This document shows positions 3,216 through 63,076 of a stretch of 64,000 bases of DNA, piece after piece. Every line of letters starts with the position of its first letter. The stretch's first letter is position 1. Below the pieces are notes generated by a model, which was not told where the DNA came from, did not search any database, and saw nothing but the letters and a program-made list of their open reading frames with translations. The translations under genes were made by a program, and so were the position numbers. The stretch is from Frigoribacterium sp. VKM Ac-2836 (lineage in GTDB: Bacteria > Actinomycetota > Actinomycetes > Actinomycetales > Microbacteriaceae), in the NCBI RefSeq assembly GCF_013248995.1, contig NZ_JABRPK010000001.1, positions 620,001 to 684,000 on the forward strand, read 5' to 3'.

Positions 3216-4172
3216 ATGCACGAGCCGGGGGCCGAGACGCGAGGGGCGGGTCTGGCCGTGACGCGCCTCCTGGGCGAGGTCGAACGGTTCGCCGACCACC
3301 TTCACGACGGCCGCGGTCTCAGCGACCACACGGTGCGGTCGTACGGAGCCGACCTCGACTCGCTCGTGGCCTTCGCCGAACACCGGCTGGGTCGACCGGG
3401 CGAGGTGGGCGACCTCGACCTCGACCTGCTGCGCGACTGGCTCTGGCAGGGCACGCAGGCCGGGCTCGCCCGGGCCACCCTCGCGAGGCGGTCGGCGAGC
3501 GTCCGGGCGTTCACCCGATGGCTCGACGAGACCGACCGGATGCCCATCGACGTCGGTGCGCGGCTGCGCGCGCCGAAGCCCGAGAGTCGCCTGCCCCGCG
3601 TCCTCACGCGTGAGCAGGTCGACGGACTGCTGGCCTCCCTCGCCGTGCGAGCGGACACGGGTGACCCCGGAGCGCGGCGGGACCTCGCCGTCGTCGAACT
3701 GCTCTACGGAGCAGGTTTGCGCGTCTCCGAGCTCGTCGGAGCCGACCTCGGCGACGTCGACCTCGATCGTCTGACGGTGCGGGTGACCGGCAAGGGGGCG
3801 AAGCAGCGCGTCGTGCCGTTCGGGGTGCCGGCGGCCGAGGCGCTGGGGCGCTACCTCGAGCTCGCCCGCCCGACGCTCGCCACCCCGGTCACGGATGCCG
3901 CCTTCTTCGTGGGGGCGACGGGAGGGCGGCTCGGCACGAGAGCGGTCTACCGGCTCGTCGCCGGTCTGCTGGCCGATCTCCCGGGAGGGGGACCGGCGGG
4001 GCCACACGCCCTGAGGCACACCGCCGCCACGCACCTGCTCGACGGCGGTGCCGATCTCCGGGCCGTCCAAGAGCTGCTCGGTCACGCGAGCCTCGGCACC
4101 ACGCAGATCTACACGCACGTCTCGACCGACCGGCTGCGGGACAGCTACCGCTCGGCCCACCCGCGCGCCTGA
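3216..4172 (+). CDS. xerC: Tyrosine recombinase XerC
   Basis: 318 residues, the usual size for XerC/XerD. It resolves chromosome dimers at dif with a partner recombinase. The N-terminal core-binding domain covers about residues 15-110 and the catalytic domain about 125-315. Catalytic residues are in place: Arg169 (GAGLRVSEL), Lys193 (TGKGAKQR), His264 and Arg267 ([11 protein letters not shown]), His290 ([11 protein letters not shown]) and nucleophile Tyr299 (IYTHV). The position after dprA and before the rpsB operon is the standard actinobacterial location, so this is the chromosomal Xer protein and not the phage integrase. The ATG follows a leaderless -10 box. Confidence 0.93.
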
Positions 4173-4285
4173 CGGCGGCGAGGGTATCTGAGGGAGCCGA
4201 GGGCCCCGACGACGCCTCGTGCCGACGACGGGTCGGCCGAGTCACGGGGCCTGCCGCGCTACGTCTGTCGTGTCCGGTCCGGTGC

Positions 4286-4831
4286 TCACCGGGGCCGCGT
4301 GGGCAGCAGCACCGAAGGCTCGATCTCGCCCAAAAACAGCAGGGGCGAGACGTACTCGCCGTCGACGCGGGCCCCCAGGTGCAGGCACGGCCGATCGGCG
4401 CAGTGCCCCTCGTCGAGGACACCGACCGTCTGGCCTCGGGTGACCGCGTCGCCTCTCGCGACCTCGGCCACGACGGGCTCGACGCTGCTCAGCACCCCGT
4501 CGGCATGGCGTATCGACAGCACGGGCCGGTCGACCACGACCCCGGCGAAGTGCACGACGCCGTCGTCCGGGGCGGTGACGACGGAGCCCGGGACGGTCCC
4601 GACGTCGATGCCCCGGTGCCCCGGCGACCACGGATTCGGCGGCCCGACGAAGGGCCTGACCACGGGATGCGGCGAGGCGACGGGCCAGGCCCACACCGCG
4701 CCTCCAGCGGGGGACGCTCCAGAGCTCGCGACCGCCGGCCGGGTCGGGAGCGACCCCGCGAGGACGGCGACCAGGATGGCTGCCGAGACCATGGCGAGGC
4801 GTCGTGACGACAGCTGAGAGAGGTGACGCAT
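4286..4831 (-). CDS. Secreted M23-family (LytM) protein, probably catalytically degenerate
   Basis: 181 residues from an ATG with AGAGAGG upstream. Signal peptide about residues 1-34 (MRHLSQLSSRR then a hydrophobic run ending PAVASS). The LytM/M23 fold contains HRGIDVGT (first zinc His and Asp) and CLHLGAR near the C-terminus. The canonical HxH has Cys in place of its first His, and the usual YxHL segment reads SSVEPV, so the two catalytic His are absent while the zinc ligands remain. This variant recurs in actinobacterial proteins encoded next to rpsB. It may therefore bind peptidoglycan or activate another hydrolase. It is convergent with xerC and divergent from the sugar porter. Confidence 0.8.
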   Translation of the reverse strand: MRHLSQLSSRRLAMVSAAILVAVLAGSLPTRPAVASSGASPAGGAVWAWPVASPHPVVRPFVGPPNPWSPGHRGIDVGTVPGSVVTAPDDGVVHFAGVVVDRPVLSIRHADGVLSSVEPVVAEVARGDAVTRGQTVGVLDEGHCADRPCLHLGARVDGEYVSPLLFLGEIEPSVLLPTRPR

Positions 4832-6413: not shown

Positions 6414-6429
6414 CCTCGGCACGCCCGAC

Positions 6430-6599: not shown

Positions 6600-6605
6600 G
6601 AGCGA

Positions 6606-8661: not shown

Positions 8662-8672
8662 GCAGCACCGTG

Positions 8673-13023: not shown

Positions 13024-13775
13024 CGACTCCCGACACCGACACCGACACCGACTCCGTCGACATCCGCGGGGGAGTCCTCCTGCCCGCGCGCCGTGAGGAC
13101 GTCGAGCTGCACACCGGTGACGGTCTCACCTTGGTGGGCGAGCTGAGCCTTCCCGCCGATCGCGAACCCGTCGGGACCATCGTCGCCCTGCACCCCTTGC
13201 CCACAGCCGGTGGGTTCATGGACTCGCACGTCATCCGCAAGGCTGCGGCCCGTCTGCCGGCGCTGGCCGACCTGGCCGTGCTCCGGTTCAACTTCCGCGG
13301 GGTGTCGTCCCCGCGCGGGCGGTCCGAGGGCGAGTTCGGCGACGGAGTGACCGAAGCGGCCGATCTCGCCGCCGCCGTGGCGTTCGTGCGCGACCGGGGA
13401 CTGCCGCTGCCGTGGCTGGTGGGCTGGTCCTTTGGCACCGAGGTCGCCCTCAAGCACGGCCTCGACGTCGAGATCGCGGGCGTCGTCCTGCTGTCCCCGC
13501 CGCTGCATCGCACGTCGGACGCCGAGCTCGGGGCGTGGCACGGGGCCGGATTGCCCGTCGTGGCCGTCGTCCCCGAGTTCGACGACTACCTGCGGCCCGA
13601 CGAGGCCCGTCGTCGATTCGCTCTCGTGCCCGAGGCCGAGATCGTCGATGTCGAGGGGGGCAAGCACCTCTGGGTCGGAGAGAAGCAGACCAGCCGCGTG
13701 CTGACCGAGATCGTCAGCCGGGTCGCTCCCGGTGCGCTGCCCTTGCCGTCCACCTGGCCGCCCCGCGCCTCCTGA
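13020..13775 (+). CDS. Alpha/beta hydrolase
   Basis: 251 residues from a GTG overlapping the preceding stop, with GGAGG 6 bases upstream. The oxyanion segment is VALHPLPTAGG (55-65). The nucleophile elbow GWSFGTE gives Ser137. His216 in GGKHLWVG is the probable catalytic His, and an Asp in PEFDDY (188-189) the probable acid. The pattern fits the dienelactone hydrolase/YdjP-like branch of serine hydrolases. The N-terminus carries TDTDTDTDS, encoded by three GACACC units. No signal peptide; the substrate is unknown. Confidence 0.78.
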   Translation: MTTPDTDTDTDSVDIRGGVLLPARREDVELHTGDGLTLVGELSLPADREPVGTIVALHPLPTAGGFMDSHVIRKAAARLPALADLAVLRFNFRGVSSPRGRSEGEFGDGVTEAADLAAAVAFVRDRGLPLPWLVGWSFGTEVALKHGLDVEIAGVVLLSPPLHRTSDAELGAWHGAGLPVVAVVPEFDDYLRPDEARRRFALVPEAEIVDVEGGKHLWVGEKQTSRVLTEIVSRVAPGALPLPSTWPPRAS

Positions 13776-18902: not shown

Positions 18903-19894
18903 CCAACCTTCCTCCCGTCCCCGCCGGTCTCCGCGGCGCCGTCGACCTCTCGTCGCTCGTCAACCGACCACCCGCGCCGGCCGGTCCGTCCGGCGGGCCG
19001 CCCGCCGAGGGCGCGACCGCAGGAGGCGCGGGGGGCGCCCCGGCCCCCGCTGCCGGTCAGGTCGCGGTGCCGGGTCTCGTGCTCGACGCGACCGACGAGA
19101 CCTTCACGCAGGTCCTCGAGATCAGCAACACCGTTCCGGTGATCGTCGACCTCTGGGCGGAGTGGTGTGGCCCGTGCAAGCAGCTGTCGCCGGTCCTCGA
19201 CAAGTTGGTCGGAGAGTACGCCGGCCGTCTGCTGCTCGTCAAGGTCGACGTCGACGCCAACCCGCAGCTGACGCAGGCCTTCCAGGCCCAGTCGATCCCC
19301 GCGGTGGCCGCGGTGATCGGTGGCCGTCCCGTCCAGCTCTTCGTGGGTGCCCTACCCGAGGCCCAGGTGCGCGACGTCTTCGAGCAGGTGCTCGAGCTCG
19401 CCGCGCAGAACGGCGTGACCGGCACGGCCGTGGTCGACGGCGCTCCCGTCGACGAGGCCGACGAGGTCGAGCCCGAGCCGCTTCCGCCGCACCACCAGGA
19501 CGCCTACGACGCGATCGACCGGGGTGACTACGCCGCGGCGATCACGGCGTACAAGACGGCCATCGCCCAGGACCCGCGCGACCAGCTCGCCGTGGCGGGA
19601 CTCGCCCAGGTGTCGTTGCTCGAGCGCCTCCAGGGCGCGTCGCTGGCCGACGTCCGTGCGGCGGCCGCGGCCGCCCCCACCGACCTCGACGCCCAGCTCG
19701 ACGTGGCCGACCTCGACCTCAGCGGCGGGCACATCGAGGACGCCTTCGACCGCGTGCTGACCGTCTTCCCGTCGCTCGACCCCCCGGGCCGTGACGTGGC
19801 CCGGGCCCGCCTCCTCGAGTACTTCGAGATCGTCGGCGTGGACGACCCGCGGGTGGCGACCGCCCGTCGTCGTCTGGCGATGCTGCTGTACTGA
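18899..19894 (+). CDS. Thioredoxin-TPR protein, CnoX/YbbN-like
   Basis: 331 residues. Ala/Gly/Pro-rich N-terminal 60 residues, then a thioredoxin domain (about 62-165) with the active site WCGPC at 89-93, so unlike E. coli CnoX it keeps a redox-active CxxC. A TPR-like region follows (about 195-325: HQDAYDAIDRGDYAAAITAY, a 20-residue helix pair). Such proteins guard unfolded substrates from oxidation and hand them to chaperones. The stretch encoding AGGAG (residues 41-45) contains a copy of the dispersed GGAGGCGCG word. It overlaps the previous gene by 4 bases. Confidence 0.88.
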   Translation: MTNLPPVPAGLRGAVDLSSLVNRPPAPAGPSGGPPAEGATAGGAGGAPAPAAGQVAVPGLVLDATDETFTQVLEISNTVPVIVDLWAEWCGPCKQLSPVLDKLVGEYAGRLLLVKVDVDANPQLTQAFQAQSIPAVAAVIGGRPVQLFVGALPEAQVRDVFEQVLELAAQNGVTGTAVVDGAPVDEADEVEPEPLPPHHQDAYDAIDRGDYAAAITAYKTAIAQDPRDQLAVAGLAQVSLLERLQGASLADVRAAAAAAPTDLDAQLDVADLDLSGGHIEDAFDRVLTVFPSLDPPGRDVARARLLEYFEIVGVDDPRVATARRRLAMLLY

Positions 19895-19912
19895 GCCGCG
19901 CCTCCTGCGGGT

Positions 19913-19970: not shown

Positions 19971-22151
19971 TCAGCGGCGCAGCTTGAGCCAGACGACGCC
20001 GAGCGGCGGCAACTGGACGTCGGCCGCGGCGGGGCGACCCGCCCACGGCTCGTCGGTCGCGGTCACGCCACCGTAGTTGCCCACGCCCGAGCCGCCGTAG
20101 ACCTCGGCGTCGGTGTTGAGGATCTCGTCCCACCGGCCGGCCTCGGGCAGACCGAAGCGCATCCGTACGGGCTGACCCGAGAAGTTCGCCAGCACGGCGA
20201 ACGATTCGCCCGACCCCGACTTGCGGAGGAACGCCACGACGCTGTGCTCGGCGGCGCCGCCTTCGATCCACTCGAAGCCGTCGGTGTCGAAGTCGTGCGC
20301 CCAGAGCGCCGATTCGTCGCGGTACACCTCGTTGAGGCGGGCCACGAGCCCGTGCAGCCCCTGGTGGACGGGCTGGTCGAGAATCCACCAGTCGAGCCCT
20401 CGCTCTTCGCTCCACTCGCTGGGCTGACCGAACTCGCTGCCCATGAAGAGCAACTGCTTACCCGGGTGGCCCCACATGTAGGCGAGGTAGGCCCGCAGGT
20501 TGGCGAGCTTCTGCCACTGGTCTCCGGGCATCTTGGCCAGCAGCGATCCCTTGCCGTGCACGACCTCGTCGTGGCTGATCGGCAACATGAAGTTCTCGCT
20601 GAAGGCGTAGACGAACGAGAAGGTGATCTCGCCGTGGTGGTAGGCGCGGTAGAGGGGGTCCTTCTCGACGTAGTCCAGGGTGTCGTGCATCCAGCCCATG
20701 TTCCACTTCAGGCCGAAGCCGAGGCCACCCTCGCTCGTCGGGCGGGTGACGCCGGGCCAGCTGGTGCTCTCTTCGGCGATCATGACGATGCCGGGGTGAC
20801 GCTTGTAGGCCGTCGCGTTGGCCTCTTGCAAGAAGCTGATCGCCTCGAGGTTCTCGCGTCCGCCGAACTCGTTCGGCAGCCACTCGCCCTCGTTGCGGCT
20901 GTAGTCGAGGTAGAGCATCGAGGCGACGGCGTCGACGCGCAGCCCGTCGATGTGGAACTCCTCGAGCCAGTAGAGGGCATTCGACACGAGGAAGTTGCGC
21001 ACCTGCGAGTCACCGAAGTTGAACACCAGCGTGCCCCAGTCGGGCTGTTCGCCGCGGCGGGGGTCGGAGTGCTCGTAGACGGCGCGACCGTCGAAGGTCG
21101 CCAGGGCCCACTCGTCCTTGGGGAAGTGCCCGGGCACCCAGTCCATGATCACGCCGATGCCGGCCTGGTGCAGCCGGTCGATCAGGTAGCGCAGGTCGTC
21201 GGGGCTGCCGAACCGGCTGGTCACGGCGTAGTACCCGGTGACCTGGTAGCCCCACGAGCCGCCGAAGGGGTGCTCGGCGAGGGGCATGAACTCGACGTGG
21301 GTGAATCCCAGGTCGCCGACGTACTCGATGAGCTGGTCGGCCAGCTCGCGGTAGCCGAGGCCCGGGCGCCACGAGCCGACGTGCAGCTCGTAGACGCTCA
21401 TCGGGCCGGCGTGGACGTCGTTCTCGGCCCTGGCGGTCATCCAGGCGTCGTCGGCCCAGGCGTGACCGGCTTTCGTGATCACTGTGCCGGTGAGCGGCGG
21501 CACCTCGGAGGTGCGGGCCATCGGGTCGGCGCGCTCGACCCAGACGTCGTCGGGGGTGAGGATCTCGTACTTGTAGATGCCGTCCGTGATGCCGGGCACG
21601 AAGAGCTCCCAGACGCCGTTGCCGTCGAGACGGCGCATCGCGTGCCGTTCTCCGTTCCAGCCGTTGAGGTCGCCCTTGACGCGGACGGCGCGTGCGTGCG
21701 GCGCCCAGACGGCGAACGAGGTGCCGGTGACGCCCTCGTGTTCGCGCACGTGGCTGCCGAGCATCTTCCAGAGCTGCTCGTGACGGCCCTCGCCGAAGAG
21801 GTAGAGGTCGAACTCGGTGACGGTGGGGGCGAAGCGGTAGGGGTCGTCGGAGACCCACGCCGCGCCTCCTTCGTAGGTCGCTTCGACCGTGTACGCACCG
21901 AGGGGCTCGTCGCTGACGCCCTGCCAGAGGCCGTGGGCCACGTGTTCGAGGGCGAGCGGGGACCCGGAGGCGCCGGTCACCGTGACCGCGTCGGCCAGCG
22001 GTCGGACGACGCGCACGGCGGTGCGGCCGCCGCGGGGGTGTGCGCCGAGGACGGCGTGGGGGTGGCCGTGGGTGCCGGTGGCAGCCGCGTACACCTCGTC
22101 GTCGCCGAGAGCGAAGGTGGTGTGGGGTCCGGTCGGGGGAGTGGTGGTCAT
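19971..22151 (-). CDS. glgB: 1,4-alpha-glucan branching enzyme
   Basis: 726 residues, full length. It introduces alpha-1,6 branches into glycogen or maltosyl glucan. Two N-terminal beta-sandwich modules (about 15-110 and 120-230) precede the GH13 barrel with MDWVPGHFPKDEW, the nucleophile Asp in DGLRVDAVASMLYLDYSR, the acid Glu in MIAEESTSWPGV and HDEVVHGKGSLL around the third Asp. A C-terminal beta domain ends the protein. The ATG is chosen for AGGAGCG upstream and lies 10 bases from the glgE stop, so glgE-glgB form one unit. Confidence 0.95.
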   Translation of the reverse strand: MTTTPPTGPHTTFALGDDEVYAAATGTHGHPHAVLGAHPRGGRTAVRVVRPLADAVTVTGASGSPLALEHVAHGLWQGVSDEPLGAYTVEATYEGGAAWVSDDPYRFAPTVTEFDLYLFGEGRHEQLWKMLGSHVREHEGVTGTSFAVWAPHARAVRVKGDLNGWNGERHAMRRLDGNGVWELFVPGITDGIYKYEILTPDDVWVERADPMARTSEVPPLTGTVITKAGHAWADDAWMTARAENDVHAGPMSVYELHVGSWRPGLGYRELADQLIEYVGDLGFTHVEFMPLAEHPFGGSWGYQVTGYYAVTSRFGSPDDLRYLIDRLHQAGIGVIMDWVPGHFPKDEWALATFDGRAVYEHSDPRRGEQPDWGTLVFNFGDSQVRNFLVSNALYWLEEFHIDGLRVDAVASMLYLDYSRNEGEWLPNEFGGRENLEAISFLQEANATAYKRHPGIVMIAEESTSWPGVTRPTSEGGLGFGLKWNMGWMHDTLDYVEKDPLYRAYHHGEITFSFVYAFSENFMLPISHDEVVHGKGSLLAKMPGDQWQKLANLRAYLAYMWGHPGKQLLFMGSEFGQPSEWSEERGLDWWILDQPVHQGLHGLVARLNEVYRDESALWAHDFDTDGFEWIEGGAAEHSVVAFLRKSGSGESFAVLANFSGQPVRMRFGLPEAGRWDEILNTDAEVYGGSGVGNYGGVTATDEPWAGRPAAADVQLPPLGVVWLKLRR

Positions 22152-22161: not shown

Positions 22162-24162
<2,001 letters not shown>

Positions 24163-25338: not shown

Positions 25339-25956
25339 TTGACCGGACCGTTCCGCGCACGCGCGCGTCACCGCTCCACCGAGCGCGCCTCCTCGTCCCG
25401 TCGTCCGCTGCGATCGCTGTGGGCGGGGACGGCCGTCGTGGCCGGTGCCGTCACCGTCGCCCTCGTGGCGACGGGCGGCACGTACGCGCTGTGGAACACG
25501 TCCGCGACCTCGAACGCCCAGATCGTGAGGTCGGGAACGGCCGCGCTCTCGATCGCCGGGCAGCCGGACCTCGACACGCCCCTCGCCCCGGGGCAGGCGA
25601 CCGCGACCACCTTCTCGGTGACGAACGGCGGCGACGTCCCGCTGTCGATGCGGGTGGCTGTCACCGCGACCACGACGTCGTCCGGCGCATCGGGCACCGG
25701 CGCGGACTCGCTCGACGAACTGACACTGCGCATCACGCCGGTGTCCTCGGCGTCGGAATGCACGGCGACGACCAGCGGCGGGTACTCGGCCCGGCCCGCC
25801 GGCTTCGACACCGGCTCCGGGTACTTCACGCTTCCCTCGGGCGTCTCGGCCCTCGCGTGTCTCGTCCTCGCCCTCGATCCGGACGCCCCCCTGGCCACGT
25901 CGGGTTCGGTCGCCGACCTGACGATCACCGTGTCGGGGACGCAGGTGACGTCGTGA
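25339..25956 (+). CDS. SipW-type secreted protein 2
   Basis: 205 residues from TTG, with AGGGGGTGAG upstream. A long basic N-terminal segment (1-27) precedes the hydrophobic run and GGTYALWNTSA. The mature part is beta-rich and includes two Cys (TTSGGYSARP region and SALACLVL) that may pair. The 186-base gap after protein 1 contains no gene. The 3' end overlaps the next gene by 4 bases (GTGA), so proteins 2 to 4 and the signal peptidase are translationally coupled. The start assignment is moderately uncertain because TTG is rare. Confidence 0.72.
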   Translation: MTGPFRARARHRSTERASSSRRPLRSLWAGTAVVAGAVTVALVATGGTYALWNTSATSNAQIVRSGTAALSIAGQPDLDTPLAPGQATATTFSVTNGGDVPLSMRVAVTATTTSSGASGTGADSLDELTLRITPVSSASECTATTSGGYSARPAGFDTGSGYFTLPSGVSALACLVLALDPDAPLATSGSVADLTITVSGTQVTS

Positions 25957-32347: not shown

Positions 32348-32382
32348 CGCTCACCGAACCGGTCGACCGCACCCGCGCCTCC
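32252..32382. repeat. Inverted pair across a permease-ATPase junction
   Basis: One copy (32252-32260) encodes STGGAT in the permease tail. The inverted copy (32374-32382) encodes TRASS at the start of the ATPase. Confidence 0.85.
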
Positions 32383-35238: not shown

Positions 35239-35279
35239 GCGTGGGCTCCGCGGGCTGATGGCGGGAGGCGCGGCGCGGG

Positions 35280-37837: not shown

Positions 37838-37903
37838 GAGGAGGCGCGCGTCGGCCCCGAAATCATCGAGCGTCACCGCCCACCCCAGCCTGAGGACCCG
37901 AAC

Positions 37904-40719: not shown

Positions 40720-41633
40720 GGTCGATCGTGGACCCCGTGAGCCGTGGGCAGCGTGGCCCCGCGCACCGTGAACCCGGCCGAGCGTCGACGCTGTTCGCCG
40801 TGGTCGGGGCCGCGGCGTTCGTGCTCGGTGGTGCTTTGACCGTCCAGGCCGGCACCGCCCGCGCCCTCGAACCCGTGCCCGAGACCGGCCTCGACGGCCA
40901 CCTCGTCCTCTCGGACGATCTGACCGGGACCGCCGACATCGCGCCGTCCTCGCCGGGACGCTGGCAGATCGCGACGGAGGTCACCACCGGCGACCGGGTG
41001 GCCCTCAGCATCGAGCTGGTCGGTTCGGGCTCGCTCGTCGAGCGACGCGACGGCCTCGCCCTCGGGGTGGACGCCTGTGACGTCGAGTGGCAGCAGCTCG
41101 AGACGACTCCGCGCTGCGCGACCGGGGCGTGGCCCGTCGCCGAGCCGACCCGCGCCTCCTCGTTCGTCGACGGCGGTCCGGCTTGGCCGGTGCGGTCGGC
41201 AGGAGGCGCGGGCCGGGTGTTCCTGCTGGTCAGCCTCGGTCTCGTCGACGGTCCGACGGGCGACGACGGCTCGCTGATGGGCCAGACCGCACGCGTGGGA
41301 GTGGGCATCACCGCGACCGCCCTCGACCCGATCCCGACCTTGCCCGCAGAACCCGGCCCCGACCCCACGGACGAGCCCTTGCCGGGTGGGTCGAGCACCG
41401 CCGTCCCCGGAACCGACCCCGGGGACGGAGGCGCGGCGACCCTCGGCGACGGAGCGGACGGCACCGAGGTCGTGACCGCCGGTGCCGAGGTCGCCGTCGT
41501 CCGGGCAGACCCCACCCGCTTCCTCGCCTACACCGGCGGTCTCGCGTTCGGCCCGGCCGTCGCCGGCGCGGGTGCCCTGCTCATCGGTCTCGCCCTGCAC
41601 CTGCGCGGCCGAGGCCGGTCGGTGACCCCGTGA
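40716..41633 (+). CDS. LAYTG-anchored surface protein of cluster 2
   Basis: 305 residues from a coupled GTG. Signal peptide to about residue 52 (VQAGTARALEP). The mature domain (about 55-215) is beta-rich with two Cys (DACDVEW and TPRCATG). Its loop carries TRASSF and SAGGAG, from an inverted pair of the dispersed word. A Pro/Gly/Thr linker precedes FLAYTGG (LAYTG at 270-274), a hydrophobic stretch and a GRGRSVTP tail: a cell-wall sorting signal of the LAxTG type used by class E sortases. No sortase gene is in the window. Confidence 0.72.
   Translation: MRSIVDPVSRGQRGPAHREPGRASTLFAVVGAAAFVLGGALTVQAGTARALEPVPETGLDGHLVLSDDLTGTADIAPSSPGRWQIATEVTTGDRVALSIELVGSGSLVERRDGLALGVDACDVEWQQLETTPRCATGAWPVAEPTRASSFVDGGPAWPVRSAGGAGRVFLLVSLGLVDGPTGDDGSLMGQTARVGVGITATALDPIPTLPAEPGPDPTDEPLPGGSSTAVPGTDPGDGGAATLGDGADGTEVVTAGAEVAVVRADPTRFLAYTGGLAFGPAVAGAGALLIGLALHLRGRGRSVTP
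41151..41210. repeat. Inverted pair in the LAYTG protein gene
   Basis: Complement at 41151-41159 (TRASS) and direct copy at 41202-41210 (SAGGAG), in a loop of the mature domain. Confidence 0.85.
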
Positions 41634-43444: not shown

Positions 43445-43511
43445 TCGTCGCGCCGGCGCCGGCCACGGACCCGAGGAGGCGCGGGTCGGCCTCGCGCGCT
43501 CCGCCTCGCGT

Positions 43512-43523: not shown

Positions 43524-44126
43524 ATGCAGCTCTACTCGTCCTCCCCCCTCGTCCGCACCCGTCAGGTGACCGGTGACGTCGTGGCGATCGGTCTCGTCGT
43601 CGTGTTCGTCGTGCTCGGCGTCAGCATCGCCGGGTTCATCGGCACCTTCGCCGACCTCGGGAGGCAGCTCGAGGAGGCGGGGGCCGGTTTCGAGGGGACG
43701 ATGCAGGACGCGTCGCGCGCCCTGGCCGGGCTGCCCCTGGTCGGTGGCGCCGCCAGCGCACCGTTCGACGGGGCCAGCGGTGCCGGGCAGTCCCTGGCCG
43801 ACGCCGGCAGGCAGCAGCAGGACGGTGTCGCGCGGGCGGCGCTCGTCGCCGGCCTGGTCGTGGCCGGGGTGCCGAGCCTCGTGGTGCTGTGGGTCTGGCT
43901 GCGTGGGCGGATCGCGTTCGTGCGCCGCGCCTCCTCGGTCCGTTCGCTGCTCGCGCTGCCGGGCGGAGAGGACCTGCTCGCGCTGCGCGCCCTGACCGGC
44001 CGGGACGCGAAAGCCGCGCTCGCGGTCGCGCCCGACCCCGTCGCCGCCTGGCGTGCGGGGGAGCCCGCCGTCGTCCGTCGCCTCGCGGACGTGGCCCTGC
44101 GCGAGGCGGGCGTCGCCCGGCGCTGA
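43524..44126 (+). CDS. Membrane protein of unknown function
   Basis: 200 residues with two membrane helices, about 18-41 and 104-126, separated by an extracytoplasmic Gly/Ala/Gln/Asp-rich loop. The C-terminal cytoplasmic part (about 127-200) is Arg/Ala/Leu-rich and amphipathic, with [20 protein letters not shown]; its ASS comes from a copy of the dispersed word. No known family is recognised. Similar small proteins are found upstream of prfB in Microbacteriaceae to my recollection, but I cannot verify that. The gene is separated from prfB by 67 bases that hold the prfB promoter. Confidence 0.6.
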
Positions 44127-44193: not shown

Positions 44194-45303
<1,110 letters not shown>

Positions 45304-47073: not shown

Positions 47074-47116
47074 GAAGGAGGCGCGGTGCCCGTGAGACGG
47101 GCACCGCGCCTCCTTC
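47074..47116 (+). terminator. ftsX terminator built from two inverted copies of the dispersed word
   Basis: A perfect 19-bp stem (47074-47092 with 47098-47116) and a 5-base loop TGAGA. The left arm contains GGAGGCGCG (47077-47085) and the right arm its complement (47105-47113). It begins 13 bases after the ftsX stop and ends 4 bases before the smpB -10 box. The trailing T-run is missing. Confidence 0.85.
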
Positions 47117-50195: not shown

Positions 50196-51473
50196 TCACT
50201 CGCCGTCCTCGACGAAGGAACAGGGCAGAACCATCAGCCACGGGCCTCCGGGAGCGATGCTCGCGTCGCCCACGGCTGCACCGGCGTCGCACTCGTCCAC
50301 GACGGTCGTCGCCTGGGGAGGCCAGACCGGTCCAGCCGCGCGGGCACCGTGCACGGAACCGAGTTGGGTGGCCTGCACCACGAGCAAGATGAGAAGGCCG
50401 GCGGTGATCAGAAGCGTGGGCACGCGCGCCGATCGGGATCGCGCTAGGGAGAGGGCGAGCGGCAGCAGGGCGACGAGCAGCATCCCGGGCACCACGCCAT
50501 AGCGCGTGTATTGGAAACCATCCAGCCAGGCATCGGGTGTGTACGTGGAGTACATCGCCCGGTGATAGCCGTTCGCGAGGTAGGCGCCGGCGTAAGCGCC
50601 GAGCGAGCCGAGGGCTAGTGCCGCCGTGGCGACGCGATGCAGGGAGTCTCCGCGCACGAGGAGGTAGGCCGTGGCGCAGACGAACGGCAGGGCCACGGCG
50701 ACGAGCAGGGGCCACCGTGATGCGACGACCTCGCCCACCTGGTGCGCGTCTGCCCACCAGACACCACCGATGACGTTGACGAGATAGCCCGTGACGAGGT
50801 CGGACAGATCGCCGGCCGCCCCCGCGACCTCGGCCCGGGGGGACCGGACCGTGGCCAGGACCTGCGCGCCCAGACCGAGCAAGAGGGTGACGCGAGGCGG
50901 CCACCGACGGGCGTCGCGAAGGTGCCACAACATCAGGGGCACGAAGAGCACGGCTTGGATCTCGGTCAGCGCGATGACGGCGGCGCCGATGGTGGCCAGC
51001 ACGAGGCCGGTCCGCGTGCGGTAGCGCCGCAGGAGCAGCCAGGGCGTCACCCACAGCAGGAACCAGTGCAGGTTGGCGAGGTTCCCGAGGACCTCCCACG
51101 ACGTGATCGGAAGCAGTATCGGAACGAGTGCGACGACGGCTCGGCTGGTCCGGTCGCCGATGACGTCACCGGCGCAGACGTAGACCACGACCGCGACGAC
51201 GGCGACGACGAGACAGCTGACGGCCGTGACGGCCACGGCGTACCGGGGCAGCGGCGCCAGCGCGGTGACGAGATCGGCTGACAGGCGAGGCAGCAGGTGG
51301 AGGTAGCCGGCGTAGGGGTCGAACCACGCGCCTCCTACTCGTGAGCCCGCGCTGTCGGCGAGGAAGTTCCGGCCGTCCTCGGCCCAGAGGCTGTCCCGGG
51401 CGCTCGGCGCCAGGCGCCACCACGAGACGGCCAGGGTGACGGCGAAGAGCAGAGCCGAGACGACGACGTCCAC
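50196..51473 (-). CDS. Polytopic membrane protein, GT-C glycosyltransferase-like
   Basis: 425 residues with about ten membrane helices. The first loop contains LWAEDGRNFLADS: an acidic pair just after helix 1 is the catalytic position in GT-C enzymes that use polyprenyl-linked sugars. Most of the rest is hydrophobic, with a short extracytoplasmic C-terminal end (ATTVVDECDAGAAVGD, PCSFVEDGE) holding two Cys. GTG start without an obvious ribosome site. The assignment to GT-C rests on topology and the ED motif. It could belong to an uncharacterised branch that modifies the wall or surface glycans. Confidence 0.55.
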   Translation of the reverse strand: MDVVVSALLFAVTLAVSWWRLAPSARDSLWAEDGRNFLADSAGSRVGGAWFDPYAGYLHLLPRLSADLVTALAPLPRYAVAVTAVSCLVVAVVAVVVYVCAGDVIGDRTSRAVVALVPILLPITSWEVLGNLANLHWFLLWVTPWLLLRRYRTRTGLVLATIGAAVIALTEIQAVLFVPLMLWHLRDARRWPPRVTLLLGLGAQVLATVRSPRAEVAGAAGDLSDLVTGYLVNVIGGVWWADAHQVGEVVASRWPLLVAVALPFVCATAYLLVRGDSLHRVATAALALGSLGAYAGAYLANGYHRAMYSTYTPDAWLDGFQYTRYGVVPGMLLVALLPLALSLARSRSARVPTLLITAGLLILLVVQATQLGSVHGARAAGPVWPPQATTVVDECDAGAAVGDASIAPGGPWLMVLPCSFVEDGE

Positions 51474-51634: not shown

Positions 51635-52519
51635 TCAGGCCGGTGCCGGCCCCGAGGACCCCCGCCGCACGAGCGAAGCGGGCGGCGCCTCGACCGAGGC
51701 GACGTCCTCACCCGCCAGCACGGCGAGCAGCATGCCGGCGGCGACCTCGCCGATGCCCTGCACGTCGTGGCTGACCGCCGACAGCGGTGGCGTCGACAAC
51801 TGGCACTGCGACGAGTCGTCCCAGGCGACGAGCGTCAGTCGCGCGGGGACGTCGATCCCCAGCCGGTGCGCCGCCGCGAGCCCGCCGAGCGCCATCTGGT
51901 CGTTGTCGAAGACGACGGCCGTCGGGGGCGTCGGTCCTGCGAGCAGACGCGAGACGGCGATCGAGCCCGCGTCCCACGAGTAATCGCCCTCGATCGTCTC
52001 GACGACGGACGAGGAGGCGCGACTCGCGGTGACCAGCGCCTCCTGCCTCACCTGCGTGTGCAGCAGCGCGGCGGGGCCCGACACGTGCGCCAAGCGGCGG
52101 TGACCGTCGGCGACGAGCGCCGCGACGGTGTCGCGCATGGCGAGGCCGTCACCCGTCCAGACGGCGGGCAGGTCGCCCGAGAGCGCGGGGTCGCCGAGCA
52201 CGACCGCGGGCAGACCGAGTTCGCGCAGCAGGGCGGGGCGGGGGTCGTCGTCGGTGAGGTCGACGAGCACGACCGCGCCGAAGTCGCCCGAGGCCGCCCA
52301 GCGCCGGTAGGCCGCCAGTTCGGCGGCGCGATCGGCCAGGGCCTGCAGCAGCAGGGTGTGGCCCCGGGGTCGCAGCACGCGTTCGATGCCGGCGATGAGT
52401 TCGTGGTAGAACGGCTCCGCCCCCAAGATCTCGCCGGGGCGGACGAGGGCGAGACCGACGCGACGGCGGTCACCCGGCCCGACAGGGGCCACCCGGGTGT
52501 CGACGATGGAGTCGGTCAT
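51635..52519 (-). CDS. LacI/PBP1-type ligand-binding protein lacking the HTH domain
   Basis: 294 residues. The two-lobed periplasmic-binding-protein-like sensor of the LacI/GalR family is complete: RRVGLALVRPGEI at its start, GAVVLVDLTDDD, PAVVLGD, AALVADGHRRLAHVSGP, PTAVVFDNDQMALGGL and DVPARLTLVAWDDS. A LacI repressor would carry a helix-turn-helix of about 55 residues first. Here only 20 residues precede the sensor, and the leaderless TAGGTT box fixes the ATG. No signal peptide is seen, so it is cytosolic. It is divergent from the ROK gene by 41 bases and may act with it as a sensor subunit, which is speculation. Confidence 0.8.
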   Translation of the reverse strand: MTDSIVDTRVAPVGPGDRRRVGLALVRPGEILGAEPFYHELIAGIERVLRPRGHTLLLQALADRAAELAAYRRWAASGDFGAVVLVDLTDDDPRPALLRELGLPAVVLGDPALSGDLPAVWTGDGLAMRDTVAALVADGHRRLAHVSGPAALLHTQVRQEALVTASRASSSVVETIEGDYSWDAGSIAVSRLLAGPTPPTAVVFDNDQMALGGLAAAHRLGIDVPARLTLVAWDDSSQCQLSTPPLSAVSHDVQGIGEVAAGMLLAVLAGEDVASVEAPPASLVRRGSSGPAPA

Positions 52520-53802: not shown

Positions 53803-53879
53803 CCCCGCGGCGGTGGCCGCGGCGCAGCGGGTCGGCGCCCCGAGGAGGCGCGGGTCACGATCCCGACACGGCCTCATGA

Positions 53880-55637: not shown

Positions 55638-55671
55638 TCGTGGTCGGAACCGAGAAGGTCAGGAGGCGCGG

Positions 55672-57667: not shown

Positions 57668-58581
57668 GCACCGTCCTGACCGTCGAGGACTTCAGCGTCG
57701 ACTACGCCGTCGAGCACCCCGTCCACGCCGTCAAGAACGTCAGCTTCGAACTCGCCCGGGGCGAGATCCTCGGCCTGGCGGGCGAGTCGGGCTGCGGCAA
57801 GACGACGCTGGCGTACGGCATCAACCGGCTGCTCAAGTCGCCGGCCGTGATCACGGGCGGCCGGGTGGTGTTCCACGACGCCGAGGGCGCCGACATCCTG
57901 CTGCCCGAACTCGACGACAAGGCGCTGCGGGCGTTCCGCTGGGACAAGCTCTCGATGGTGTTCCAGGGGGCGATGAACGCGCTCAACCCCGTCACGACGA
58001 TCCAGGCGCAGCTCGAGGACGTCTTCAAGACCCACCGCCCGTACTGGAAGAAGGCCGACCGCGTCGAGCGCGCGGGCAAGCTGCTCGAGACCGTGGGTGT
58101 CGACCGCAGCCGGCTGAAGTCGTACCCACACGAGCTGTCCGGCGGCATGCGCCAACGCGTGATGATCGCCATGGCGCTGGCCCTCGGCCCGCAGATGATG
58201 ATCATGGACGAGCCGACCACGGCCCTGGACGTCGTGGTGCAGCGCGAGATCCTGCGCGAGATCGCACGGTTGCGCGACGAGCTCGGCTTCGCGGTCATCT
58301 TCATCACCCACGACCTGCCGCTGCTGCTCGAGATCAGCGACCGCATCGCCGTGATGCGGGCGGGCGAGATCGTCGAGATCGGAGAGTCGACCGAGCTCTA
58401 CACGAACCCGCAGCACGAGTACACGAAGACCTTGCTCGGGTCGTTCCCGAGCCTCACCGGCGACCGCGGGGCGTTCATCCGCAGCGGGGTCGACGAGACG
58501 GCCGGGGGCGGCGCGACCCGCGCCTCCTCGGGGCACGAGCAGGCGACGTCGGTCGCCACGAGCACAGGAGGCGCGGCGTGA
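57664..58581 (+). CDS. ABC ATPase, DppD type, mannoside operon
   Basis: 305 residues. GESGCGKTTLAYGI Walker A, LSGGMRQRVMIAMAL signature and MIMDEPTTALDVVVQ Walker B are present. The C-terminal 45 residues lack the usual Cys-rich oligopeptide extension. They consist instead of a Gly/Ala/Thr/Ser-rich stretch reading ATRASSG and STGGAA, from an inverted pair of the dispersed word. The tail thus appears to have been remodelled by the repeats. It overlaps the second ATPase by 4 bases (GTGA). Confidence 0.92.
   Translation: MSTVLTVEDFSVDYAVEHPVHAVKNVSFELARGEILGLAGESGCGKTTLAYGINRLLKSPAVITGGRVVFHDAEGADILLPELDDKALRAFRWDKLSMVFQGAMNALNPVTTIQAQLEDVFKTHRPYWKKADRVERAGKLLETVGVDRSRLKSYPHELSGGMRQRVMIAMALALGPQMMIMDEPTTALDVVVQREILREIARLRDELGFAVIFITHDLPLLLEISDRIAVMRAGEIVEIGESTELYTNPQHEYTKTLLGSFPSLTGDRGAFIRSGVDETAGGGATRASSGHEQATSVATSTGGAA
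58519..58575. repeat. Inverted pair at the end of the DppD-type gene
   Basis: Complement at 58519-58527 (TRASS) and direct copy at 58567-58575 (STGGAA, then stop). The second copy is also the ribosome site of the next gene. Confidence 0.85.
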
Positions 58582-59393: not shown

Positions 59394-59478
59394 CGCGGCC
59401 CGCGCCTCCTGCACCTGAACCGCGCCGCCCCCGGGGCGGGCCCGACTCCACGCCACACCCTCGATCGCTGGGAGCGAC

Positions 59479-62049
59479 ATGAGCACCACCGAGACCACCA
59501 CGACCACGACCACCCACGCGACACAGCGCGCCGTCCGCCCCCTGCACACCGGCTGGAGCCTGCGCAGCACCGCCGGCCCCGTGCCGCCCGAGATCGCGGC
59601 CGTCGACGTGCCCGCGACCGTCCCCGGCACGGTGCACACCGACCTGTTGGCGGCGGGCCTGATCGTCGACCCGTACCTGGACGCGAACGAGCACCTGCTC
59701 GCCTGGATCGGCCGGGCCGACTGGTCGTACACGACGAGATTCGACTGGGCACCCGACGGGCACGACCGTCACGAGCTGGTCTTCGCCGGTCTCGACACGG
59801 TGGCGACCGTCCTGCTGAACGGCGAGGTCGTGGCCGAGACGCGCAACCAGCACCGCACCCACAGGGTCACGGTCGACGGACGGCTGCGCGAGGGCGCGAA
59901 CGACCTCGAGGTGCGCTTCGGCTCGCCGGTGGCCTACGCCGACGCGCAGAGCCTCTCGCTCGGCTACCGGCCGCACGTGAACCACCACCCCTACAACGCC
60001 GTCCGCAAGATGGCGTGCAGCTTCGGCTGGGACTGGGGGCTCGACACGGCGACCTCGGGGATCTGGAAGCCCGTGACGCTCGAGTCGTGGTCCTCGGTGC
60101 GGCTGGCGGCGGTGCGTCCGGTGGTGACCGTCGACGGGTCGCGGGGCGTCGTCGACGTGCACGTCGACCTCGAGCGCGCGGGGGTGTCGGCAGGTGCGGC
60201 GGTCGAGCCGGTGACGGTCCGGGCGACCGTCGGCGAGGTCACGCAGGAGGCGCGGGTCGAGCCGGGCACGGACTCCACCGTCCTGCAGGTGGTCGTCGAC
60301 GACCCCGAGCTGTGGTGGCCGAGGGGCCACGGCGGGCAGCCGTTGTACGACGTGAGCGTGTCGGTGACCGGGGGAGAGGGCGGGGACGCGACCCGCGCCT
60401 CCTCGGGTGTCGGGGCGCCGGCCGGCGCCGTGCTCGACGCGTGGTCGTCGCGCATCGGGTTCCGCTCCGTCGAGGTGCAGGTCGAGCCCGACGACATCGG
60501 CACGAGTTTCACGGTCGTGGTGAACGGGGAGGCGCTGTGGATCAAGGGGGCCAACTGGATTCCGGACGACGCGTTCCCGCACCGCATCGGGCGCGACCGT
60601 TACCGGCAGCGCATCGAGCAGGCCGAGTTCGGCAACGTGAACCTACTGAGGGTGTGGGGTGGCGGCATCTTCGAGTCGGACGACTTCTACGAGCTCTGCG
60701 ACGAGCGCGGCATGCTCACGTGGCAGGACTTCCTGTTCGCCTGTGCGGCCTACGCCGAGGAGGACCCGCTGCGCGGCGAGGTCGAGGCCGAGGTGCGTGA
60801 CAACGTGACCCGGCTGATGACGCATCCGAGCCTGGTGCTGTGGACGGGCAACAACGAGAACATCTGGGGTCACGACGAGTGGGGCTGGGAGCGGCGGCTC
60901 GACGGGGCGACCTGGGGTCTCGGCTACTACCTCGAGTTGTTGCCCGCGCTGGTGGGCGAGCTCGACCCGGGGCGTCCGTACGCGGCGGGCAGCCCCTGGT
61001 CGGGCAGCCTCGACGTGGCGCAGAGCGACCCCGATCACGGGTCGGTGCACCTGTGGGAGCAGTGGAACCGCAAGGACTACCCGACCTACCGTGACGTCGT
61101 GCCGCGTTTCGTGGCCGAGTTCGGCTGGCAGGGGCCGCCGACCTGGTCGGCGATGACGCGGGCCATCCACGACGAGCCGCTGACGCCCGAGTCGCCGGGC
61201 ATGATCGTGCACCAGAAGGCGATGCAGGGCAACGACAAGCTGACCGACGGGCTGCTGGCGCACTACCGGCTGCCGAACGAGATCGAGGCGTGGCACTGGG
61301 CGATGCAGCTGAACCAGGCGAACGCCGTGCAGGTCGCCCTCGAGCACTTCCGGTCGCACGCTCCACGGTGCCAGGGAGCCGTGGTGTGGCAGATCAACGA
61401 CTGCTGGCCGGTGACGTCGTGGGCGGCGGTCGACGGCGACGGACGGCGGAAACCGCTGCTCTACGCCATGCGGCACGCGTTCGCCGATCGACTGGTGACC
61501 ATCCAGCCCCGCGAGGCAGGTCTCGCGGCCGTCCTCGTCAACGACACCGGGGAGGCGCTGGCCGGCCCGCTCACGCTGCGGCGCCTCGCCTACGACGGTC
61601 GTGTCCTGGCTTCGGAGTCGGTGGCGCTCACGGTGGGGGCTCGCGAGACGGTGACCGTGCCGGTGCCCTCGTCGGTCGGGGAGTTCGGGTCACCCGGATC
61701 GGAGTTGCTCGTCGCCTCGGTGCCCGGGGTCGCCCGGGGGTTGTGGTTCCCGGTCGAGCCGCGGGACTCGGGCCTCGCCGAGGCGTCGCTGTCGACCTCG
61801 GTGACGGTGGTGCCCGAGGGGCAGGAGGCGCGGGCCGGCTATCGCGTCGAGGTGACGGCTGCGTCCTTGGTGCGTGACCTGACTCTGCTCGTCGACAAGG
61901 TCGACCCCGCGGCGACGGTGGACGAGATGCTGATGACGTTGTTGCCGGGGGAGACGGCCGTGTTCACGGTGGTGTCCGATGTGCCGGGCGTGGGGGAGCA
62001 GCTCGTGGCGCGACAGGTGTTGCGTACTGCGAACGAGCTGGTGGGGTGA
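59479..62049 (+). CDS. Beta-mannosidase, GH2
   Basis: 856 residues, the family length. It hydrolyses beta-mannosides from the non-reducing end. The N-terminal sugar-binding domain starts TGWSLRSTAGPVPPE and contains VPGTVHTDLL. Two Ig-like domains (about 190-310) and the TIM barrel follow, with WTGNNENIWG (acid/base Glu about 460) and FVAEFGWQGP (nucleophile Glu about 547). A C-terminal beta region ends the protein. No signal peptide, so it acts on imported oligosaccharides. GGGAGC lies before the ATG. The Ig-like part contains VEPGTDS and TRASSG segments read from two inverted copies of the dispersed word. Confidence 0.93.
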   Translation: MSTTETTTTTTTHATQRAVRPLHTGWSLRSTAGPVPPEIAAVDVPATVPGTVHTDLLAAGLIVDPYLDANEHLLAWIGRADWSYTTRFDWAPDGHDRHELVFAGLDTVATVLLNGEVVAETRNQHRTHRVTVDGRLREGANDLEVRFGSPVAYADAQSLSLGYRPHVNHHPYNAVRKMACSFGWDWGLDTATSGIWKPVTLESWSSVRLAAVRPVVTVDGSRGVVDVHVDLERAGVSAGAAVEPVTVRATVGEVTQEARVEPGTDSTVLQVVVDDPELWWPRGHGGQPLYDVSVSVTGGEGGDATRASSGVGAPAGAVLDAWSSRIGFRSVEVQVEPDDIGTSFTVVVNGEALWIKGANWIPDDAFPHRIGRDRYRQRIEQAEFGNVNLLRVWGGGIFESDDFYELCDERGMLTWQDFLFACAAYAEEDPLRGEVEAEVRDNVTRLMTHPSLVLWTGNNENIWGHDEWGWERRLDGATWGLGYYLELLPALVGELDPGRPYAAGSPWSGSLDVAQSDPDHGSVHLWEQWNRKDYPTYRDVVPRFVAEFGWQGPPTWSAMTRAIHDEPLTPESPGMIVHQKAMQGNDKLTDGLLAHYRLPNEIEAWHWAMQLNQANAVQVALEHFRSHAPRCQGAVVWQINDCWPVTSWAAVDGDGRRKPLLYAMRHAFADRLVTIQPREAGLAAVLVNDTGEALAGPLTLRRLAYDGRVLASESVALTVGARETVTVPVPSSVGEFGSPGSELLVASVPGVARGLWFPVEPRDSGLAEASLSTSVTVVPEGQEARAGYRVEVTAASLVRDLTLLVDKVDPAATVDEMLMTLLPGETAVFTVVSDVPGVGEQLVARQVLRTANELVG
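60246..60402. repeat. Inverted pair within the beta-mannosidase gene
   Basis: Direct copy at 60246-60254 (read as QEARVE) and complement at 60394-60402 (TRASSG), both in the Ig-like region, outside the catalytic barrel. Confidence 0.85.
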
Positions 62050-63076
62050 CCGAGCTGCAGCACGTCCTGCAGGTCGGCAAGGCCGATCAGCACGTCGGTC
62101 AGGCCGACGACGCCCCGAGGCCCAGCGTGTCAGCCAGGTGGGGCAGACGCAGGTCACCGTCGACCACGTCGACCACGTCGACCACGTCGACGGTGGCGCC
62201 GGTCTCGGCGAGGGCCACCGCGAGGTTGGCCGTCGTGGTCGTCTTGCCCTCTCCGGGCAGCGACGACGTGACGACGAAGCAGCGACTGGCCGACTCCACG
62301 TTGACGAACTGCAGGTTCGTGCGCAGGGTGCGGAACGACTCGGCGCGCGGGTTGCGCGGGTCGACGTGCACGATCAGCGGGTGCTTCTTCGCCCCGGGGT
62401 CGTAGCAGATGCCGCCGACGATGGGGGCGTCGGTGACGAGCTCGACGTCGTGCGAACCGTGGATGCGCGTGTCGAGGGTGCTCCGCAGCACGGCGGCACC
62501 GACACCCAGGGCGAGGCCGATCAGCAGGCCCAAACCGAGGTTCAGCGCCGTGCGGGGGGTCGAGGGCGCCGAGGCCACCGACCCGGGGACGATCGTGGCG
62601 ATCTTGACCAGGCTCGCGCCTCCATCGGCGGGCGTCTCGAGCTCGTTGACGACGACCTCGGTAAGGGAGGTGCCCACCGCGTTGGCGACGTCGGCCGCCC
62701 GCTGGGCATCGGTGTCGGTCACCGTGATGTTGATCAACACGGTGTTGAGGGGGGAATCGGCAGTGATCTGACCGGCCAGCGCCGCCGCGGTCGTGTCGAG
62801 GCCGAGCTGGTCGATCACCGGGTCGAGAACGGCGTCGCTCGTCACGACGTCGACGTAAGACTGCACCTTCTGCTGTGCCGCGCTGCTGCCCTGGACCGCA
62901 TCGCCCGTGGTCGACGAATCCTGGGCCTGCACCGAGACGAACAGCCGGGTCGACGACACGTAGGTCGGCGTGGCGAGAAGAGAGGCGAGGGCACCGACGG
63001 CGACGCCGGCGAGCGTGAGGGCGGCGATGAAGATCCAGCCCTTGCGGAGAATGCGGATGTAGTCACGGAGTTCCAC
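62050..63076 (-). pseudogene. Exopolysaccharide tyrosine kinase (CpsD/Wzc-like), frameshifted and truncated
   Basis: The frame from GTG 63076 encodes 325 residues, then TGA at 62099-62101. Wzz-type chain-length domain with helices about 14-35 and 177-199, then a BY-kinase domain with SSLPGEGKTTTTANLA (Walker A about 271-279). The Walker A' region reads VDVVDVVDVVDGDLRLP, six residues longer than the family pattern. After LADTLGLG the homologous continuation GVVGLTDVLIGLADLQDVLQ lies in the -1 frame, consistent with loss of one base near 62112. It stops at the mannosidase end, so Walker B and the tyrosine tail are missing. The membrane part may still be made. Confidence 0.8.
62159..62191 (-). 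repeat. 9-base tandem repeat within the Walker A' region
   Basis: On the plus strand GTCGACCAC occurs three times (62159-62185), followed by GTCGAC. On the coding strand it encodes repeated Val-Asp-Val. Two units more than the family pattern would add six residues without changing the frame. Confidence 0.85.

Follow-up and report, generated by a model that had tools for sequence, protein, structure and literature searches.

The genomes of Frigoribacterium are crowded with copies of one short word, with the core GGAGGCGC and the consensus AGGAGGCGCGG, which we read, at a probability of roughly 0.47, as a sequence-specific self-label for the uptake of DNA or for the recombination of DNA that has been taken up. 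This reading draws on the abundance of the word, its genus specificity, its excess over synonymous-codon shuffles and in intergenic DNA, its lack of polarity, its hairpin pairs, its maintenance in place, the positional profile of its changes, the words of other genera and a variant in one Frigoribacterium genome (G007). On the side of the machinery, it draws on a type IV pilus (T4P) operon, on ComEC and on the natural transformation published for Rhodoluna lacicola, a member of the same family (PMC11577799, in the part of the paper available to us).

A self-label could act in the following manner: a trans-acting receptor would bind double-stranded DNA at the word, whichever strand bears it, and word-bearing fragments of close relatives would be preferentially imported or recombined. 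Such biased exchange would hold the frequency of the word up, and the specificity of the receptor would drift between genera, giving rise to dialects (AGGAGGCGCGG; GGATGCC(G); CAGGATCCGG). We infer that the receptor exists and belongs to DNA import, and likewise which filament would carry it.

Distribution in the window and the genome

The window, i.e. the whole 64-kb stretch of DNA analysed, contains exactly 36 copies of GGAGGCGCG, 17 on the plus and 19 on the minus strand, in agreement with the original prediction of about 36 copies on both strands. Its chance estimate was four or five copies; 100 dinucleotide shuffles of the window yield 5.26 (sd 2.37, maximum 12), and an order-4 (5-mer) Markov model of the window expects 1.7. 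Among 9- to 13-mers, GGAGGCGCG and its extensions are the most strongly over-represented in the window. In correction of the original prediction, 27 of the 36 copies fall within predicted genes (gene prediction used a simple codon model, not a published program); the intergenic DNA, 12% of the bases, holds 9 copies and thus has a higher density than the genes.

Unpaired copies in coding DNA are found on the minus strand at 3262..3270, 4697..4705, 13764..13772 (where the predicted gene ends 3 bases on), 21861..21869, 43926..43934, 51327..51335 and 62615..62623, and on the plus strand at 19022..19030, 22495..22503, 23682..23690, 37840..37848, 41427..41435, 52013..52021 and 61824..61832. A further copy, at 45068..45076 (minus), lies within a gene for a release factor with PCRF and RF-1 domains. 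Intergenic, unpaired copies are located at 19897..19905, 25384..25392 and 59401..59409 on the minus strand and at 43475..43483, 53844..53852 and 55662..55670 on the plus strand, the last of these with a predicted start codon just after its end. Between 4705 and 13764 there are zero copies, so the stretch that had been called rpsB-cdsA and word-free, gene names that we take over from the original prediction, is indeed empty.

Neither confinement to the window nor a count near the Markov expectation was observed: the word occurs throughout the genome and the genus, far above the nulls. Genome-wide, AGGAGGCGCGGG is present in 490 copies (253 plus, 237 minus) in 3.27 Mb, the reversed word in 1. 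In 844 kb of sampled sequence, GGAGGCGCG occurs 479 times (25.6 by model), the 10-mer AGGAGGCGCG 316 times and AGGAGGCGCGG 247 times (2.0 by model).

Genus specificity and the words of related genera

All 16 Frigoribacterium genomes carry 217-674 copies of the word; 103 genomes of other genera carry 0-18. Other Microbacteriaceae have different words with a GGA core, namely GGATGCC(G) in many of them and CAGGATCCGG in two genomes, G019 and G061. The occurrence of different words in related genera resembles the dialects of DNA uptake sequences. The kinship of these words rests on the short GGA core, and their function would presumably be a common one, the words of the other genera serving the same purpose as that of Frigoribacterium. 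The reversed-word control for the other genera contains TAG and therefore exaggerates the contrast, so the other control and the comparison between genera were relied on.

The samples of Curtobacterium, Rathayibacter and Agreia lack a GGA-core word. In Curtobacterium, the next genus by FtsX, AGGAGGCGCGG occurs 3 times in 688 kb and the 9-mer at about twice the 4-mer model (74 vs 33.9); a comparable word was not found there (29 of 36 loci in one comparison, 5 in another). The family's small genomes (0.9-1.8 Mb) have no clear excess of CGGATGCCGC (1-19 copies), which speaks against a self-label, although Rhodoluna, a small-genome member of the family, is transformable. Two further candidates were dropped: CAGGAACTC, suggested as a Frondihabitans word by one 20-kb locus, makes no family genome stand out (the highest count is 68 within the family and 80 beyond it), and GGAGGCGC in G046 is intergenic only.

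Tentatively, and with more reserve than for the self-label itself, we propose that the Microbacteriaceae possess a system of uptake dialects which is independent of the systems in Neisseriaceae and in Pasteurellaceae and perhaps not bound to T4P. Its GGA-core word would have a putative receptor, vary between genera, be missing in some and be drifting (GGAGGCGC to GGAGTCGC) in one living Frigoribacterium species.

Persistence and change of copies between species

Copies were compared between species by pairwise local alignments, the multiple alignment of 11 loci being unusable (38 kb of columns). The word persists at two to three times the rate of permuted words: 364 of 606 orthologous comparisons show it unchanged, whereas 400 permuted words are unchanged in 786 of 3986. 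In genes, the proportions are 249/399 vs 723/2719 (300 permuted words), in intergenic DNA 115/207 vs 137/433; these comparisons are not independent of one another. Changes are near or below expectation at word positions 2-6, few at positions 7-9 and well above expectation at positions 1, 10 and 11, a profile as for one recogniser. Simple drive models predict intermediates; single-mismatch forms at core positions 2-9 total 52 vs 44 expected, which counts against a self-label.

In G007 the core variant AGGAGTCGCGGG occurs 88 times, against 0-3 times in the other 15 Frigoribacterium genomes. The first position is relaxed in this genome, and a further word, GTTCGGGGTT, is frequent as well. A wholesale change of the word in place is unsupported by the five aligned AGGAGTCGCG sites of G007, which in the source genome correspond to one AGGAGGCGCG, three other sequences and one gap. 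The single AGGAGGCGCG counterpart is most likely the site at 38175..38183 (minus), which reads GGAGTCGCG at the aligned site of L083 (F. endophyticum) and GGAGGCGCG in nine other Frigoribacterium loci.

Candidate uptake machinery and possible binding by other proteins

The source genome encodes ComEC and a T4P operon, which is located in L066 together with pilins. The ComEC and TadE profiles have no discriminating power because matches are too common: ComEC is found in 16/16 Frigoribacterium and 114/119 genomes overall, TadE in 9/16 and 106/119. T4P genes are present in 13 of the 16 Frigoribacterium genomes; in the remaining three (G002, G003 and G006), neither PilM, PilB nor TadE gave a match. 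TadE matches are weak in the genus, and four T4P-bearing members also lack one. That these three genomes nevertheless hold 529, 637 and 487 copies, respectively, argues against a self-label. Their ratios of near-plus-exact to exact copies (2.97, 2.74 and 3.16) equal those of seven T4P-bearing members (2.76-2.97) and lie below those of the other six (3.52-5.45), so no decay is visible. Among 56 other genera of the family, T4P and CGGATGCCGC are weakly associated (one-sided p 0.019, uncorrected for descent; a ratio of at least 4 in 16/28 vs 9/28, Fisher p 0.11), and in two word-rich genomes, G071 (766 copies) and G068 (314, draft), T4P gave no match.

The original prediction had left the choice between an uptake sequence and another binding word. 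The habits of uptake sequences that could be tested were indeed found: the word uses both strands, is denser in intergenic DNA, forms hairpin pairs and is specific to the genus, and related genera have words that differ from it. Its association with type IV pili is loose, and hence a genome-wide protein-binding word of another kind keeps a real share of the probability. The word would then be the site of a putative intracellular protein unrelated to DNA import (candidates are a nucleoid organiser, a self-marker of a defence system or the site of an orphan methyltransferase), which we regard as rather unlikely, albeit the rival to be taken most seriously. Sharp recognition, genus specificity, maintenance in place and the persistence of the word in the three genomes without T4P or TadE matches all suit such a protein; the use of both strands in genes and the preference for permissive DNA over fixed positions do not, and replacement of the word between genera would require hundreds of site changes without biased exchange. 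If uptake is not the purpose, a word strictly maintained in hundreds to thousands of copies would indicate an as yet undescribed DNA-binding system that acts across the whole genome.

Orientation, hairpins and coding context

Chi sites act in one orientation and are often polar on the replichores; typically they are short words whose over-representation is specific to a species, a likeness that the Frigoribacterium word shares and that counts for a Chi-like signal, which would halt a nuclease of the RecBCD/AddAB/AdnAB type and start recombination. A recombination signal would likewise favour exchange among relatives. The word is without polarity, in contrast, as had been argued in the original prediction against Chi and KOPS: strand counts are balanced in the 36 of 40 stretches, the window among them, that hold at least five copies (chi-square 21.2, 36 degrees of freedom, p 0.98; ori and ter not located), and a KOPS-like polarity towards the terminus is absent as judged by stretches. 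Given also a density 3.8 times higher in intergenic (1.62/kb) than in coding DNA (0.43/kb), a Chi-like role is improbable. The word differs from its reverse complement, unlike HIP1 of cyanobacteria, which is genome-wide as well but palindromic.

The inverted pairs that had been noted are real: seven pairs of neighbouring copies, with starts 28-148 bases apart, occur in the window. Five are convergent, i.e. 27461..27469 (+) with 27515..27523 (-), 32252..32260 (+) with 32374..32382 (-) and 60246..60254 (+) with 60394..60402 (-), all coding; 35264..35272 (+, intergenic) with 35357..35365 (-, coding); and the hairpin at 47077..47113 (+) in the ftsX/smpB gap, formed by copies at 47077-47085 (+) and 47105-47113 (-). 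Two are divergent and coding, i.e. 41151..41159 (-) with 41202..41210 (+), and 58519..58527 (-) with 58567..58575 (+), where the predicted gene ends 6 bases on. The hairpin at 47077-47113, a terminator according to the original prediction, is very strong (-48.1 kcal/mol), but a T run is absent and a scan for intrinsic terminators gave no match; visual inspection of the 16 bases that follow the other listed hairpins revealed no T run either.

Convergent pairs at most 45 bases apart number 20, including 16 intergenic hairpins, a minority of which behave as units. Neither L084 nor L088 has the ftsX-smpB hairpin, which is missing there as a unit, two of the 16 (L039 and L078) are nearly alike in stem and loop, and intergenic copies are often lost with gaps (62/207; controls 161/433), all of which would fit copies left over from a hairpin element (REP-like or MITE-like) that a transposase had spread. 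The 20 close pairs account for about 40 of the 479 copies, however, and genic copies differ mainly by substitution, with gaps in 21/399 comparisons, much like the controls (159/2719). This origin is largely refuted for coding copies and very unlikely overall. In the ftsX-smpB hairpin, stem and loop differ among species, and the word arms are mostly kept.

That codon usage, dipeptide content or mutation bias produced the enrichment as a side effect is hardly credible. It is true that in genes mostly the word encodes the frequent readings TRAS, EEAR, QEAR, ARAS and PRLL, and that its density rises with G+C. However, the coding copies number 316 where 60 synonymous-codon shuffles give 61.6 (maximum 81), so that copies exceed such shuffles 5- to 14-fold and are never reached by them, the word in intergenic DNA stands about 20 times above seven control words (0.02-0.11/kb), and Curtobacterium has almost no AGGAGGCGCGG, even though its 9-mer exceeds the model.

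Comparison with known uptake systems

Two families of Gram-negative bacteria are known to possess uptake sequences. Those of the Pasteurellaceae (USS) are very frequent short words tolerated in coding DNA, as is the Frigoribacterium word; they have AT-rich flanking positions, unlike the latter, whose flanks carry weak information only. A minor pilin is the predicted receptor of USS, according to the available part of PMC12616744. The DUS of Neisseriaceae are 10- to 12-mers with 943 to 3236 copies and dialects (Frye et al. 2013, PMC3630211); as described in the part of that paper at hand, they share with the Frigoribacterium word the high frequency, the different words in related taxa, the intragenic and intergenic copies and the inverted pairs that form stem-loops. 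The differences lie in the unrelated sequence and phylum, the absence of a strict T4P link, hairpins without T runs and the fact that the Frigoribacterium word is known from sequence alone.

ComEC-based uptake would be shared with Micrococcus luteus, which belongs to the same order of actinobacteria. Its transformation depends on Flp pili (PMC4322843; reviewed in PMC6370729; both in the parts available), and a term search of PMC4322843 and PMC8467076 returned no mention of uptake sequences. As far as our literature search reached, none have been described in actinobacteria, and the self-label, if true, would be the first such case in this phylum. It would imply that species-labelled transformation arose independently in actinobacteria that live in the environment and on plants, provide a family-scale set of dialects for studying the co-evolution of receptor and word, and suggest including the word in donor DNA if these genera are to become genetically tractable.

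Stretches with few copies

A 30-base query of phage collections retrieved seven records, which is chance level, and in broader viral scans the matches listed did not set the word apart from its control. Three stretches, L050, L053 and L054, contain 1 copy each. L053 may be an island; ten of its proteins, tested by PHROGs, yielded no phage structural module. Word density declines as G+C decreases, also when permuted words are used to correct for composition, and foreign DNA and constraint are both candidate causes. L050 and L054 were wrongly considered as foreign DNA, since they contain housekeeping genes.

Abundance and host range

In the window, the 9-mer GGAGGCGCG is present in 36 exact copies (17 on the plus and 19 on the minus strand), compared with a mean of 5.26 and a maximum of 12 in 100 dinucleotide shuffles, which bears out the original observation of about 36 copies, almost equally divided between the strands, where four or five would be expected by chance. 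Together with its extensions, the word leads the over-represented 9- to 13-mers of this stretch. The enrichment reaches beyond the window (C1:620001-684000 in its own genome): the 3.27-Mb genome contains 490 copies of AGGAGGCGCGGG, 253 plus and 237 minus, and a single copy of the reversed word. Among 119 genomes searched, its own included, all 16 of Frigoribacterium carry 217-674 copies of AGGAGGCGCGGG each; the 103 others (56 from other genera of the family and 47 from other families of the order) carry 0-18, approximately the level of their reversed control. For the FtsX of the window, the ten best of 80 loci belong to Frigoribacterium (88-99% identity), followed mainly by Curtobacterium and other Microbacteriaceae. 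Literature searches on uptake sequences in actinobacteria, Microbacteriaceae and Curtobacterium, and on repeats in Frigoribacterium, returned no such word among the matches listed, and a search for its letters in paper texts no title on the subject among those listed (the searches covered papers open without subscription).

The word may serve as a self-label for transformation, a reading to which we assign a probability of slightly less than one half; it matches an uptake-sequence dialect in most of the testable sequence-level features, although it departs from one in having neither a tie to a filament nor near-match intermediates. That it marks the site of a putative intracellular DNA-binding protein is a less likely reading.

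Anatomy and placement

In an 844-kb sample of the genome (the window plus 39 further stretches, each 20 kb long), AGGAGGCGCGG occurs 247 times versus 2.0 expected from 5-mers, and GGAGGCGCG 479 times versus 25.6. The core is GGAGGCGC, preferably preceded by A and followed by GG, with a weak tail, GTCGGGTC. Single-change forms of the 11-mer do not clearly exceed expectation at positions 2-6, some falling below it, and are common at positions 1, 10 and 11; at positions 7-9, a few reach 4-11 times expectation, each with at most 10 copies.

Predicted intergenic sequence, 11.9% of the bases, holds 163 of the 479 copies (1.62 per kb), and predicted genes hold 316 (0.43 per kb), compared with 0.02-0.11 per kb for seven rearranged control words. 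Tandem gaps are the densest (2.24 per kb), followed by convergent (1.41) and divergent ones (0.74). Genic copies occur in both orientations and several reading frames. The absence of strand bias, as originally noted, holds across 36 of the 40 stretches (chi-square 21.2, 36 df, p 0.98; four with fewer than five copies excluded), and strand counts lacking polarity do not fit Chi or KOPS. A REP element does not fit either, since genic copies show no insertion, and nor does a by-product of codon bias, since genic counts exceed those of synonymous-codon shuffles 5-fold for GGAGGCGCG and 14-fold for AGGAGGCGCGG.

Neighbouring copies less than 50 bases apart number 40 where 12 would be expected; half of these are convergent, with a spacing of 20-40 bases, and 16 of the 20 convergent pairs spaced within 45 bases are intergenic hairpins. 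The ftsX-smpB hairpin of the window has a predicted folding energy of -48.1 kcal/mol (z -9.0); it had been taken for a terminator formed by paired copies, a reading that its lack of a T run does not support. An intrinsic terminator does not fit the word in general, T runs being absent and most copies single. Across species, stem and loop of this hairpin vary and the word arms are mostly kept; it is missing in two of ten Frigoribacterium loci (L084, L088), its site being partly masked in L081 and consisting of G and C runs in L083, an F. endophyticum record. Past ftsX, after position 10912, L083 contains long G/C runs resembling low-quality sequence. One stretch (L053, G000:C1:940001-960000) has a low GC content of 66% and one word copy, and is possibly an island; of three proteins submitted to Pfam, two scored above the cut-off, one as an MFS transporter and the other as a Na+/H+ antiporter.

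Turnover and probable drift

The window segment and ten Frigoribacterium loci were aligned pairwise, giving 55 comparisons that share sequences and are not independent. AGGAGGCGCG had stayed the same in 364 of the 606 cases aligned, versus 786 of 3986 for 400 permuted words. In genes, the word was kept in 249/399 cases and gapped in 21/399, versus 723/2719 and 159/2719 for 300 permuted words; outside genes, the figures were 115/207 and 62/207 versus 137/433 and 161/433. Compared with control words, retention of the word is thus some two- to threefold higher, and genic copies come and go mainly through substitution.

The lowest AGGAGGCGCGGG count in the genus, 217, is that of G007, which has 88 copies of AGGAGTCGCGGG versus 0-3 in the other 15 genomes. 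At one site, L083 carries a T instead of the G shared by the window and the nine other Frigoribacterium loci. Within 400 kb of G007, position 1 of the word is also relaxed, and only one of five aligned AGGAGTCGCG sites reads AGGAGGCGCG in the genome of the window. In our reading, the word that is recognised has drifted, for the most part other than by in-place change. The same 400 kb (L471-L490) contain 36 copies of GTTCGGGGTT (model, 0.4), which is absent from the top words of the window's genome.

Other words in Microbacteriaceae

Leifsonia, Agromyces and Cryobacterium carry a different word, CGGATGCCGC, at their FtsX loci, with the variant GGATGTCGC in Leifsonia locus ALI-44-B. Genome-wide, CGGATGCCGC reaches 1179 copies in G016, 1182 in G040 and 1137 in G044, its ratio to the reversed control being generous because that control contains TAG; it is unremarkable in Frigoribacterium (24-44 copies) and in other families. 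In shuffle tests of seven sampled genera (G068, also sampled, was left out), GGATGCCG exceeds expectation 3.0-5.5-fold in genes (G016, G040, G044, G071, G054, G023, G021) and, on small counts of 1 to 9, 8-20-fold between genes in six of them, but only 1.5-fold in G021. Named Leifsonia, Cryobacterium and Agromyces loci are similarly enriched, one Agromyces 1.9-fold in genes; samples of Curtobacterium, Rathayibacter and Agreia show no comparable GGATGCCG enrichment.

In G019, AGGATCCG is enriched 13-fold in genes and 15-fold outside; CAGGATCCGG numbers 293 there, 155 in G061, 0-66 in the remaining genomes of the family and up to 119 in other families. In 40-kb samples, G056 has GGATGACC, and the palindrome CGGATCCG stands 12-fold above synonymous shuffles in genes of G049 (L219-L220), where nine copies of TAGCCCGTAG were also seen. 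Samples of G031, G041, G048, G064 and G065 yielded no clear word. These words share GGA, then G or T, which is suggestive, but not proof, of kinship across genera. In G046 (L215-L216), CCTGGAGG and GGAGGCGC repeats lie 13-18-fold above permutations between genes, with no enrichment in genes; in 40 kb of G059 (L223-L224), TCTCGATACG (10 copies) and GGGCTACTCG (8 copies) are repeat-like.

Candidate uptake machinery

In Micrococcus luteus, natural transformation depends on Flp pili (PMC6370729). It has also been reported in a member of the Microbacteriaceae, Rhodoluna lacicola (PMC11577799), so that DNA uptake in the family is real. ComEC matches were found in 114 and TadE in 106 of the 119 genomes, so that neither discriminates word carriers. 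By sequence-profile matches, a type IV pilus (T4P) operon lies at C3:483384-496413 of the window's genome (L066:3384-16413), encoding PilB, a second T2SSE ATPase, PilC, a major pilin, a 235-aa protein whose N_methyl match is borderline (22.6 and 19.8 bits), a 472-aa protein that begins like a pilin but lacks an N_methyl match, a 599-aa protein assigned to no family, PilD, PilM, a further protein of no family in the position of PilN, and PilO. One gene downstream of the operon lie ribosomal genes, which we take from their translations to resemble rpsL, rpsG and fusA. PilM and PilB are both present in 13/16 Frigoribacterium genomes and 28/56 of the other genera of the family. T4P is weakly associated with CGGATGCCGC (one-sided Mann-Whitney p 0.019; Fisher p 0.11 at a fourfold threshold), descent being ignored in both tests. 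T4P genes and TadE matches are both missing from three Frigoribacterium genomes (G002, G003, G006); their ratio of near-plus-exact to exact copies, 2.74-3.16, indicates no decay of the word, and that of T4P-bearing members is 2.76-2.97 in seven and 3.52-5.45 in the other six.
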